DNA of 64,000 nucleotides from positions 310,001-374,000 of the forward strand of contig NZ_OCTN01000002.1 of NCBI RefSeq assembly GCF_900231835.1, read 5' to 3'. Every line of letters begins with the position of its first letter. Position 1 is the first letter of the stretch. The position numbers and the translations under genes were made by a program. This DNA is from Pontivivens marinum (GTDB lineage: Bacteria; Pseudomonadota; Alphaproteobacteria; Rhodobacterales; Rhodobacteraceae). Below are positions 29,532 through 35,443 of the stretch, piece by piece. The notes under the pieces were generated by a model. It was not told the DNA's origin. It searched no databases and saw only the letters and a program-made list of their open reading frames with translations.

Positions 29532-29768
29532 ATGGCGAATGATAAGCAAAACCTGCAGGATGCCTTTCTAAATAACGTACGTAAGGCGAAAATTCCCGTA
29601 ACAATATTTCTCGTAAACGGTGTGAAATTGCAGGGCGTCATCACTTGGTTCGACAACTTCTGCGTATTACTGCGCCGTGATGGGCAGAGCCAACTTGTGT
29701 ATAAGCACGCGATTTCGACGATTATGCCGTCACAACCGGTTAATCTATACGAACCTGAAACAGACTGA
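29532..29768 (+). CDS. hfq: RNA chaperone Hfq
   Basis: Hfq forms a hexameric Sm ring that helps small RNAs pair with mRNAs. The 78-residue product is the short alphaproteobacterial form with almost no C-terminal tail. Sm1 reads [19 protein letters not shown] and Sm2 contains the RNA-binding YKHAIS (57-62). ATG 29532 is preceded by GGAG at 29519-29522; the in-frame GTG at 29517 is rejected because Hfq begins MANDKQ here. It is followed after 5 bases by hflX, the standard hfq-hflX pair. Confidence 0.97.
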
Positions 29769-31327: not shown

Positions 31328-32050
31328 ATGGCAAAAGCACCTAGAACCCGTCGCAGGACGAAACGTCGTGCGACGGTTGCGCAGCGTTGGCGTGGAAACT
31401 TTCTGACCGGTCTGGTGATCGTTGCGCCGATTGGTTTGACGATCTGGCTGATTTGGACGGTCATCACCTTCATCGATGCGAAGGTCGTTCCGTTGGTGCC
31501 CAGCGGCTATAATCCGGGCACCTATCTTGGCAATGATGTCCCCGGCTTTGGCGTCATCATTTTTTTGCTGTTCACGGCTGTGATCGGTTGGCTGACCAAG
31601 GGTCTGGTTGGTCGATCCATCCTGCGCTGGGGTGAAAATCTGGTTGAACGTATGCCGGTTATCGGTGGCGTTTATAACGGCATCAAGCAGATAGCTGAAA
31701 CGATCCTGAGCCAATCCGGCAGTTCGTTCAAGCAAGCCTGTCTGATCGAATATCCGCGCAAGGGAATTTGGGCTGTCGCGTTCGTTTCGACCGAGACCAA
31801 GGGTGAAGTGTCGAACCGCCTGCCAGAGGAGCAGCTGATCTCCGTCTTTCTGCCAACCACTCCAAACCCGACCAGCGGGTTTCTGTTATTCGTACCGCGC
31901 GCCGAAATGGTGATGCTGGATATGGATGTGGAGGATGCGGCGAAGTTGATCATCTCCGCCGGTCTGGTCACCCCCCCTACTGCGGCGGAGAAAGCTGCCG
32001 GTGTGCGAGTTGCAAATCGTAAAGGCGAGCCTGTGCGGCGCAGCGCGTAG
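31328..32050 (+). CDS. DUF502 family membrane protein
   Basis: A 240-residue inner-membrane protein of unknown function. A basic N-terminus (many Arg/Lys in residues 4-22) precedes TM1 (25-48) and TM2 (72-92), then a soluble domain with RMPVIGGVYNGIKQI, VAFVSTETKGEV and VFLPTTPNPTSGFLLFVPR, all typical of DUF502. The topology is probably N-in/C-in. The start is ATG 31328; an adjoining TTG one codon upstream is ignored. It ends 125 bases before the convergent binding-protein gene, with a strong stem-loop between. Confidence 0.88.
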   Translation: MAKAPRTRRRTKRRATVAQRWRGNFLTGLVIVAPIGLTIWLIWTVITFIDAKVVPLVPSGYNPGTYLGNDVPGFGVIIFLLFTAVIGWLTKGLVGRSILRWGENLVERMPVIGGVYNGIKQIAETILSQSGSSFKQACLIEYPRKGIWAVAFVSTETKGEVSNRLPEEQLISVFLPTTPNPTSGFLLFVPRAEMVMLDMDVEDAAKLIISAGLVTPPTAAEKAAGVRVANRKGEPVRRSA

Positions 32051-32175: not shown

Positions 32176-33963
32176 TTATTTTACCTCTGACCACCACACA
32201 TCAGGCATAAAGCCGATCCAGTAACCGTAGATTGGCAGATTGTCCGCGGGGTAATGCAGCTCCGCCTTATGTGCCACGCGCACCAGAGGTGAGTACCAGA
32301 ACGGGATCACGTAGCGACCGGTCGTCAGAACGCGGTCCAGTGCGTTGACAGCAGAGACGAAATCCTCGCGTCCCTCGGAGGACAGGATCGCATCGATCAT
32401 GGCGCCAGCGGCAGGAGCATCTATGCCCGCGTAGTTCCGCGTGCCCTGCCCCTGAACCCCGCGTGAGCCCCAGTAATTGATCTGCTCTGTCCCCGGCGAC
32501 AATGACAGGCCCCATGTGTGGGCGATCATGTCGTAATCATAGGTGTTCAGGCGTTCGGCATATTGGGCGCTGTCTACCAGTGACATTTCCATCGTGATGC
32601 CCAGCCGTTGCAGTGCCTCGGCGAAGATGTTGGTCACAGCCTCGTTGGCGGAGGAGGATAGCAACATCTCAAACACAAAGGGCTCACCTGCCCCGTTTTG
32701 CAGTACGCCATCATTTAGCGTCCAGCCCGCCTGTGTCAGCAGATCCTGCGCGGCACGCAGGTTGCGGCGGTTGCGCAGATCGGCTGTGCCAACCGGCAGC
32801 GTGTAGTCGCTGAGCACGTCGGCGGGCAGATCGGTGAGGTATGGTTCCAGCAATTCGCGCTCACGCGCGGATGCCTCTCCCTCAAACCCCAGCAAAGAGT
32901 TGTCGAAGTAGCTTTCGATCCGGCCAGGTACCCCGGCATTCAAACGCTCATTGATGAATTCGAAGTTAAAGACGTGCAGCAAGGCATCGCGCACACGGAT
33001 ATCGGCAAAGATCGGTGAGCGTGTGTTAAAGACGAGGCCAGACATGCCTGTTGGCCGCTGATGTGCCACCTCTGACTGCACGATGTCGCCACGCTCCACT
33101 GCGGGGAAGTTATATTGCTCAACCCATTTCGCCTCATCATATTCGACGTGATAGGATGTTTCACCTGAGGTGAAAGCCTGCCATGCGGCCTCTCCATCTC
33201 CGAAGAACTCGTAGCGGATCGCGTCGAGGTTATGGCGGCCCACGTTGAAATTCAGGTCGGCGCCCCAGTAGTCGGGATTGCGGTCAAACTGGATAAAGCG
33301 GCCCGTGTCGAAATCCCCGATTGTGTAGGGACCGGATGCAATGAAGGGGCGCAGCGAGCTTTCCGTGAAATCGACATCGTCCCAATCTGCCTTTTTCAGC
33401 ACGGGGCGCAGGCCGAGGATCAGGGGCAATTCGCGGCTGTCACCCGTCAGGTTAAAGCGGACAGAACGCTCACCGGTTTGTTCGGTACTGACGACGCCAT
33501 CCCATGCGGAGCGGTAGCGGGCGTGGCCCTGCTCACCCATAGTTTCAAAGGACCAGATCACGTCCTCAACCGTGACGGGTGAACCGTCAGAGAATCGGGC
33601 GGCGGGGTTCAGGTGGAATTCAACCCATGTGCGATCGTCTGCCATCTCCACCGATTCGGCCAATAACCCGTATAGGGTGAATGGCTCATCATAACTTCTA
33701 CCCAAGAGCGATTCTGCCACATGGGCGCGGGTTCCATATGGCGCACTTCCTTTTTGAATAAAGGGGTTGAGGCTATCAAACGACCCGCGAGCGCCCTCAA
33801 CAATGATTCCGCCAGTGGGTGCTTCTGGGTTAACGTATGGTAAATGCGCGAAATCTGGTGGCAGAGCAGGCTCTCCATACATTGCAATGCCATGTTGGGG
33901 CTGCGCGGCGGCAGCCGAGGCAGTCAGAAGGACCACCGCTGCTATTGAACTAATTCGTGACAT
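32176..33963 (-). CDS. Peptide-type ABC transporter substrate-binding protein (YejA-like, family 5)
   Basis: A 595-residue periplasmic binding protein with a signal peptide (MSRISSIAAVVLLTASAAAA). The family 5 (SBP_bac_5) features include HGIAMYGEPALPPDFAHLPY, GSFDSLNPFI, SVEDVIWSFE-like region VTVEDVIWSFETM and FNPDYWG-like FDRNPDYWGAD. The N-terminal sequence and size resemble YejA, a binding protein for oligopeptide/microcin-C-type substrates. No permease or ATPase gene lies nearby, so it either serves a distant transporter or is an orphan. A divergent promoter pair lies upstream, and a probable small RNA gene runs the other way. Confidence 0.88.
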   Translation of the reverse strand: MSRISSIAAVVLLTASAAAAQPQHGIAMYGEPALPPDFAHLPYVNPEAPTGGIIVEGARGSFDSLNPFIQKGSAPYGTRAHVAESLLGRSYDEPFTLYGLLAESVEMADDRTWVEFHLNPAARFSDGSPVTVEDVIWSFETMGEQGHARYRSAWDGVVSTEQTGERSVRFNLTGDSRELPLILGLRPVLKKADWDDVDFTESSLRPFIASGPYTIGDFDTGRFIQFDRNPDYWGADLNFNVGRHNLDAIRYEFFGDGEAAWQAFTSGETSYHVEYDEAKWVEQYNFPAVERGDIVQSEVAHQRPTGMSGLVFNTRSPIFADIRVRDALLHVFNFEFINERLNAGVPGRIESYFDNSLLGFEGEASARERELLEPYLTDLPADVLSDYTLPVGTADLRNRRNLRAAQDLLTQAGWTLNDGVLQNGAGEPFVFEMLLSSSANEAVTNIFAEALQRLGITMEMSLVDSAQYAERLNTYDYDMIAHTWGLSLSPGTEQINYWGSRGVQGQGTRNYAGIDAPAAGAMIDAILSSEGREDFVSAVNALDRVLTTGRYVIPFWYSPLVRVAHKAELHYPADNLPIYGYWIGFMPDVWWSEVK

Positions 33964-34004: not shown

Positions 34005-34033
34005 ATACTACAGGCCCAGATGCGGGTCGGCAA
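34005..34033 (-). promoter_or_regulatory. Likely promoter of the binding-protein gene
   Basis: On the minus strand TTGCCG (34033-34028), a 17-base spacer and TAGTAT (34010-34005) lie about 40 bases before the binding-protein start. It is back to back with the plus-strand promoter at 34044-34072, with an A tract (34032-34038) between the two -35 elements. Confidence 0.5.
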
Positions 34034-34043
34034 AAAAATAACT

Positions 34044-34072
34044 TTGTCATGCCCCGACATAATCCCTATATT
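34044..34072 (+). promoter_or_regulatory. Strong sigma-70 promoter of a putative small RNA
   Basis: TTGTCA at 34044-34049, an exact 17-base spacer and TATATT at 34067-34072: five of six matches to each consensus hexamer. Transcription would start near A34079. No protein gene lies downstream on this strand before the terminator at 34127-34154. Confidence 0.65.
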
Positions 34073-34078
34073 GGGCTT

Positions 34079-34154
34079 ACTGCTCGATAGGTTTCTTGCC
34101 TGTATGAAACCTGCCTCAATACTTTACCCCCTCGCGTGCGAGGGGGTTTTTTTT
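34079..34154 (+). ncRNA. Putative small RNA of about 76 nt
   Basis: Between a near-consensus promoter (34044-34072) and a textbook intrinsic terminator (34127-34154) lies a stretch with no complete ORF: the only ATG (34104) runs through the terminator. The predicted RNA has a first hairpin, AGGTTTC/GAAACCT (34089-34095 with 34106-34112, loop of 10), a single-stranded linker with UCAAUACUUUA, and the terminator hairpin with eight T residues. This is the layout of a trans-acting small RNA, and the 3' poly-U would suit Hfq, which is encoded at 29.5 kb. I do not recognise an Rfam family. The promoter-terminator pairing is seen directly; the function is inferred. Confidence 0.6.
34127..34154 (+). 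terminator. Strong intrinsic terminator without an upstream protein gene
   Basis: A 9-bp perfect stem CCCCCTCGC/GCGAGGGGG with a two-base loop as drawn (likely opening to four), followed by eight T residues. Its orientation is plus, while both neighbouring protein genes are minus, so it ends the putative small RNA. Confidence 0.92.
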
Positions 34155-34194
34155 CGGGTTACGTCTGGCAAATTTCAGCATCCCTGAATCGAAA

Positions 34195-34267: not shown

Positions 34268-35443
34268 TTAACGTGGAGGTTGTGGCAAAACCGCGCGCAA
34301 CTCGTCCTCGCTAACACCCAATGCGTGTGCTGCTGCGGCAACGTCCAGATCACGCCCGCCTGCGTCCTCAACTGCCTGCATGAATGTATCGGCTGTAACG
34401 CCCAATGTCGCAGCGGCCTCCTCAAAGCCCGGAGGCATCATTCCGTCAGGTCCACCATCCGTGGGGCGAGGAGGTTCGTTCCGGCCACCAGCGCCCGCGT
34501 TCTGCGCGCCTACGCCCGCTGTTGCTGTAGTGGTGAAGTTATCCACGGCCTGCACACCGTTGAGGCAGGATGGCAGGTTCGGGAACTCGTCCGAGGCGTG
34601 GTAGTGATACACCTCCTCACCCGTTGCGGTGATACCCACATGGCCACCACATTGATCTAGCCCCTCAGGCGTGGAGCCGTCCGCCTCCAGACTGCCAAAC
34701 ATCGCGAAGCCGTCAAAGGCGTAGCCGAACTGCGCGGTTGCATCCTGTGTCACGGTGCAATCGGCGATGACGTCCTCATTTTCGAACACTGTCTGAACGT
34801 CGGTGGAGGTGGCGTGCCAGTGATACCAACCGCCCGGATCAATATGCCCGCCGCAGGTGTCCAGTGCGGGCATATGGCCTGTCGCCTGAATCGAGGGGGC
34901 ATCAGAAAAGATCGGAACGCCGTCCAGCGCCACGCCGACCTTTACTACCGTGCCTAGGCTGGTTGGCTCATCTGACATAACGGGATAAACGGGCAGCAGG
35001 ATCGTGATTTCAACGCTTTCATCAGCGGAGACGTTGATACAGGCGTGATCGACCGTTGGCTGTTCTGTCGCGTTATCCACGACGTGCACGTTGCCGTCCT
35101 CATCATAGAAGGTGTAGCCCAGCTCATCCATCATGGTCAGGTAGTCACGGTCGATGCGGTACAGGCCCGCATTCTCGCCGGTCCATTCCCAGATGCCGCC
35201 CGCCTCATCCAGCGTTGCCGGACAGAAGGGTCCGATCTCCAGCCCCTCTGGCAGGTAGCCAACCTTGATTTCATGACACTGCGTTTCGGTGCCGTCCTCT
35301 AGCGTGCAGTCAACGATCTGTGGTGCCTCGGTAAAGGCGGTGTCGGTGAAATATGCCGTATCGGAATGAGCCAATGCATAGCTAGGCGCCAGAAGGCACG
35401 TTGCCATCGCCAGATAGACTGGAGTTCGGTTAATAACTGTCAT
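34268..35443 (-). CDS. Exported YHYH-domain protein
   Basis: A 391-residue protein with a signal peptide ending near ALA-HS (residue 26). The central region has the paired motifs GGWYHWHAT and GEEVYHYHAS that define YHYH proteins, plus several cysteines (TQCHE, FCPAT, DTCGG, DQCGG, SCLNG) suggesting disulfides. A Gly/Pro-rich linker (NAGAGGRNEPPRPTDGGPDG) leads to a C-terminal helical segment with two similar units (ATLGVTADTFMQAVEDAGG and HALGVSEDELRAVLPQ). The function is unknown; the His-rich motifs suggest metal binding. It is 14 bases downstream of a MarR regulator and probably cotranscribed with it. Confidence 0.8.
   Translation of the reverse strand: MTVINRTPVYLAMATCLLAPSYALAHSDTAYFTDTAFTEAPQIVDCTLEDGTETQCHEIKVGYLPEGLEIGPFCPATLDEAGGIWEWTGENAGLYRIDRDYLTMMDELGYTFYDEDGNVHVVDNATEQPTVDHACINVSADESVEITILLPVYPVMSDEPTSLGTVVKVGVALDGVPIFSDAPSIQATGHMPALDTCGGHIDPGGWYHWHATSTDVQTVFENEDVIADCTVTQDATAQFGYAFDGFAMFGSLEADGSTPEGLDQCGGHVGITATGEEVYHYHASDEFPNLPSCLNGVQAVDNFTTTATAGVGAQNAGAGGRNEPPRPTDGGPDGMMPPGFEEAAATLGVTADTFMQAVEDAGGRDLDVAAAAHALGVSEDELRAVLPQPPR

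Follow-up and report, generated by a model that had tools for sequence, protein, structure and literature searches.

A conserved small RNA gene of Pontivivens marinum, most likely an StsR orthologue, with complementarity to the mraZ leader

Positions 34079–34154 on the plus strand of the window (the whole stretch of 64,000 nucleotides of Pontivivens marinum DNA that we analysed) very probably encode a trans-acting, StsR-type small RNA (sRNA) that is transcribed from its own promoter (likely recognised by RpoHI/RpoHII), is probably Hfq-dependent, and pairs with the mraZ leader and UpsM. On comparative sequence grounds, the locus is a real, highly conserved small-RNA gene rather than a product of chance. 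An earlier note on this DNA had proposed a free-standing small-RNA gene at this place, complete with promoter and terminator, a proposal that the comparative evidence supports, and to which we add the StsR-like family, the mraZ leader/UpsM as the partner, and near-invariance across the order.

Anatomy of the transcription unit

The promoter, the predicted start at 34079, the predicted 76-nt transcript, the first hairpin and the strong terminator that the note had described were all found at 34044–34154, and the two flanking minus-strand genes are also as it had described them. The features, in window coordinates, are these:

32176–33963, minus strand: family-5 solute-binding protein (SBP_bac_5; Pfam E 9.7e-61), the divergent neighbour
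34031–34043, plus strand: AT-rich element 5′ of the −35 box, corresponding to the conserved CAAACTTTTAG block that relatives have
34044–34049, plus strand: −35 element TTGTCA (TTG at −35 to −33 in 91–99% of loci)
34067–34072, plus strand: −10 element TATATT (TAT at −12 to −10 in 95–98% of loci)
34079–34154, plus strand: StsR-like small RNA of ~76 nt (92.5 bits against covariance model R1, which includes the window's own copy; fold z −4.5)
34079–34118, plus strand: near-invariant 40-nt core ACTGCTCGATAGGTTTCTTGCCTGTATGAAACCTGCCTCA, from BLAST-retrieved loci
34080–34086, plus strand: RNA 5′ end CTGCTCG, complementary to the CGAGCAG of most mraZ leaders (the exact CGAGCAG site is absent here)
34088–34113, plus strand: hairpin 1 of the predicted fold, an 8-bp stem (34088–34095/34106–34113) with a 10-nt loop
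34095–34107, plus strand: CTTGCCTGTATGA, loop and 3′ arm of hairpin 1, a 13-nt perfect complement of this genome's own mraZ leader (locus L180)
34126–34154, plus strand: Rho-independent terminator of the predicted fold, a 9-bp stem (7 GC; 34126–34147) and eight T (34147–34154)
34268–35443, minus strand: YHYH protein

The TTGTCA and TATATT boxes, which are separated by a 17-nt spacer and match the consensus at 10 of 12 positions, form the top-ranking promoter-like site across 3.5 kb. Conservation of the promoter columns, computed over 152 distinct loci, is high at both boxes, and the promoter region of the relatives, which reads CAAACTTTTAG-C-TTGG, ~17 nt and TATAAA, is also conserved, as is A34079, position +1 of the conserved block. 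The CAAACTTTTAG block lies at −47 to −37 in the relatives, directly 5′ of the −35 box, and may serve as a site for an activator or as an UP-like element; at that position the window has only an AT-rich counterpart, CAAAAAAATAACT, in its place.

Work on RpoHI and RpoHII promoters in R. sphaeroides found the −35 TTG and A−12 to be essential or highly informative, with T−9 favoured by RpoHI and C−14/T−13 by RpoHII (PMC3441632). The promoter in the window has the TTG and, when +1 is shifted one base downstream, C−14, T−13, A−12 and T−9 (CTATAT). We infer the promoter class from this sequence, which is compatible with RpoHI/RpoHII and also fits sigma-70. The same genome has genes for two RpoH-like sigma factors.

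The predicted folding energy of 34079–34156 is −26.4 kcal/mol, compared with −15.6 ± 2.4 kcal/mol for shuffled sequences. Hairpin 1 appeared in the predicted fold at 156 of 159 loci, whose RNAs range in length from 71 to 81 nt (median 76, the length in the window), and a terminator hairpin was predicted in each of the 130 distinct RNAs, built from 43 different stems that are all paired. The nearest upstream gene on the plus strand, encoding a DUF502 protein, ends at 32050, which means that the terminator is no relic of transcription running on from a gene close by.

No protein gene fits on the plus strand here, and the sole ATG, at 34104, reads through the terminator, both as the note had claimed. 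The position of this ATG inside the invariant core might suggest a tiny protein gene, but the GCCTGT that precedes it is no ribosome-binding site, and in relatives the frame either closes after 5, 6, 7, 8 or 11 codons or stays open. Because the length of the frame differs among species, the ATG does not mark a conserved gene, and we regard the peptide reading as hardly credible.

Conservation and gene neighbourhood of the sRNA

The note had named a lack of conservation in relatives among the findings that would refute an sRNA gene; the unit was instead found conserved both by BLAST and by covariance model. BLAST detected it in 35 of 36 further members of the family, the one without it being a genome of 74% completeness, and gave no match in 24 other alphaproteobacteria. 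Within the genus around a Paracoccus locus, 124 of 125 genomes had the unit as well, and a pattern scan of named genomes returned at least 118 loci, including those of Ruegeria, Sulfitobacter, Leisingera, Paracoccus, Jannaschia, Rhodovulum, Planktomarina, Neomegalonema and many others. Covariance model R1, built from 30 of the sequences so collected, found exactly one copy in each of the 101 genomes of the order that were sampled. When applied to a sample of the class, it matched three of 190 genomes, all three from the same family, and none of the 187 genomes outside it. Phage records contained no match to the sRNA gene, and matches in a plasmid collection fell only on large secondary Paracoccus replicons.

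Conservation is concentrated in the first 40 nucleotides. Positions +1 to +40 hardly vary across the loci compared, and in all 30 loci found by BLAST they are identical, except for position 19 in one of them (L010); we limit the statement of invariance to these 30 because part of the wider set was picked by a pattern inside the core. Past position 40 the sequence drifts, and the terminator stem varies yet remains paired.

A family-5 solute-binding-protein gene lies divergently beside the sRNA gene at no fewer than 122 of the 148 loci, with a median distance of ~112 bp. An adjacency kept so widely could mean that the sRNA acts in cis on the peptide-binding-protein gene, as a regulator or leader, or that this gene is its main target, but the sRNA sits on the opposite strand and has a terminator of its own at which it ends, and no excess complementarity to the sRNA core was observed around the start of the binding-protein gene (mean z −0.35, n = 58). 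We consider such a role quite improbable, and because that region lacks complementarity to the core, the conserved neighbourhood looks inherited rather than regulatory. Also in the vicinity is the gene for Hfq, the RNA chaperone on which StsR draws in R. sphaeroides (29533–29768, plus strand), directly upstream of hflX and ~4.3 kb from the sRNA gene, a distance that is similar in congeners G002 and G003 and not in G001, G004 and G013.

Complementarity to the mraZ leader

In R. sphaeroides, the trans-acting sRNA StsR pairs with UpsM, an sRNA that cleavage releases from the long mraZ leader (PMC8307010; PMC8625941), and the UpsM leader has been described as exclusive to Rhodobacteraceae (PMC5089854). 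We therefore examined mraZ leaders, reading 24 loci from 23 genomes (one genome twice). Every one of the 24 contained a perfect complement of the sRNA core, 9–18 nt in length, which spanned 15–18 nt in most leaders (typically GCAGGTTTCATACAGGCA) and 9–14 nt in the others, and 17 of them added CGAGCAG, the complement of the sRNA 5′ end, 44–60 nt downstream. Most of the sRNA–leader duplexes were stronger than every shuffle, and in accessibility-aware cofolding most of the relatives tested favoured pairing, with values of about −15 to −31 kcal/mol versus about −8 ± 3 kcal/mol for shuffles. A genome-wide search for the 12-mer TTTCATACAGGC as a rule yields no place beyond the sRNA gene and the mraZ leader; the additional matches seen in a few genomes lie inside genes or unrelated sequence, with no gene in common.

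The mraZ leader of the same genome (L180, on contig 20 of G000) carries a 13-nt complement, TCATACAGGCAAG, a match with a chance probability of ~3e-4 by our estimate (28 13-mers in 800 nt). The cofolding gain for this leader (−11.4 kcal/mol) was not significant relative to shuffled leaders (−8.5 ± 3.2 kcal/mol), and the CGAGCAG second site is absent from it; pairing in this genome draws its support chiefly from position and homology. The leader has diverged in this genus (L180, ~1020–1275), with CGAGCAG lost and TCATACAGGCAAG replacing GCAGGTTTCATACAGGCA, while the sRNA core is unchanged. For rpoE, the other published StsR target, we observed no excess pairing in seven parsed relatives with uncertain start codons (mean z −0.73).

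In the mechanism that we propose, the sRNA would be transcribed from its own promoter, likely by the stress sigma factors RpoHI/RpoHII, and would end at its own terminator. Hairpin 1 would then, through its loop and 3′ arm, pair with UpsM and with the long 5′ leader of the mraZ operon, which serves division and the cell wall, and a second leader site ~50 nt downstream would in most relatives be paired by the sRNA 5′ end. By analogy with R. sphaeroides, pairing may remodel the leader and expose it to RNase E, and expression of the division genes would be lowered under stress and in stationary phase. Hfq and RNase E would likewise be expected to take part in P. marinum, with a corresponding effect on its division.

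Family assignment and comparison with known sRNAs

Searching Rfam 15 at curated thresholds returned no family for the sRNA. Among the best sub-threshold matches was RF00519 (24.2 bits), the alpha-r8 (mmgR/SisA) family, whose members have a C/U-rich anti-Shine-Dalgarno core. We judge membership in this family very improbable: the score is under the 41-bit gathering threshold, both here and in the relatives searched; another, unrelated stretch outscores the sRNA against RF00519; the 10-nt core motif of alpha-r8, UUUCCUCCCU (PMC12559287), is absent from 34079–34154; and an alpha-r8 gene is present elsewhere in the same genome. The alpha-r8/mmgR identity was rejected on account of this separate, high-scoring gene. 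The true alpha-r8/mmgR gene (L033; G000:C8:7731–7805) lies on another contig and scores 70.4 bits against RF00519.

StsR of R. sphaeroides is an orphan sRNA of 72 nt under RpoHI/HII control that binds UpsM, the dcw 5′ UTR and Hfq, and promotes RNase E cleavage (PMC8307010; PMC8625941). The gene in the window is most likely its orthologue, an assignment made by partner, size, promoter and phylogenetic range, and not by StsR sequence. The gene might instead encode some other conserved sRNA whose main partner is likewise the mraZ leader. This we consider unlikely, as it would require a second single-copy, family-wide sRNA with the same size, an RpoH-compatible promoter and the same partner, and in most genomes the 12-nt complement of the leader is found, the leader itself aside, at this gene alone.

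With the assignment to StsR, an unannotated gene gains a name and a partner, and a regulator characterised in R. sphaeroides is found in essentially all sampled genomes of the order. The covariance model and the conserved pairing site are now provided, and how stress slows division in roseobacters, Paracoccus and their relatives can be tested in a wide range of species. A core so nearly invariant also prompts one to ask which further RNAs constrain it. We suggest tentatively, as a reading that we would not yet favour over its negation, that StsR and the mraZ leader have acted as an order-wide stress brake on division since the Rhodobacterales ancestor, and that invariance of the 40 nt far beyond what the leader needs reflects further partners that lock the sRNA.

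With mmgR/alpha-r8/SisA-D (RF00519), the RNA shares the general form of a short alphaproteobacterial sRNA (one weak hairpin, a pyrimidine-containing linker and a terminator) but differs in its core motif. UpsM, from the mraZ 5′ leader (RSs0682), corresponds here to the partner RNA, a homologous leader encoded elsewhere, and not to this gene. Compared with the pairing in many relatives, this genus has lost the second leader site, and the first spans 12–14 nt rather than 15–18 nt. The gene resembles StsR (formerly RSs0827) of R. sphaeroides in several features: both are orphan intergenic sRNAs of Rhodobacterales, ~72–76 nt long, with the mraZ leader/UpsM as partner, and the promoter here is, by its sequence, compatible with the RpoHI/HII control of StsR.
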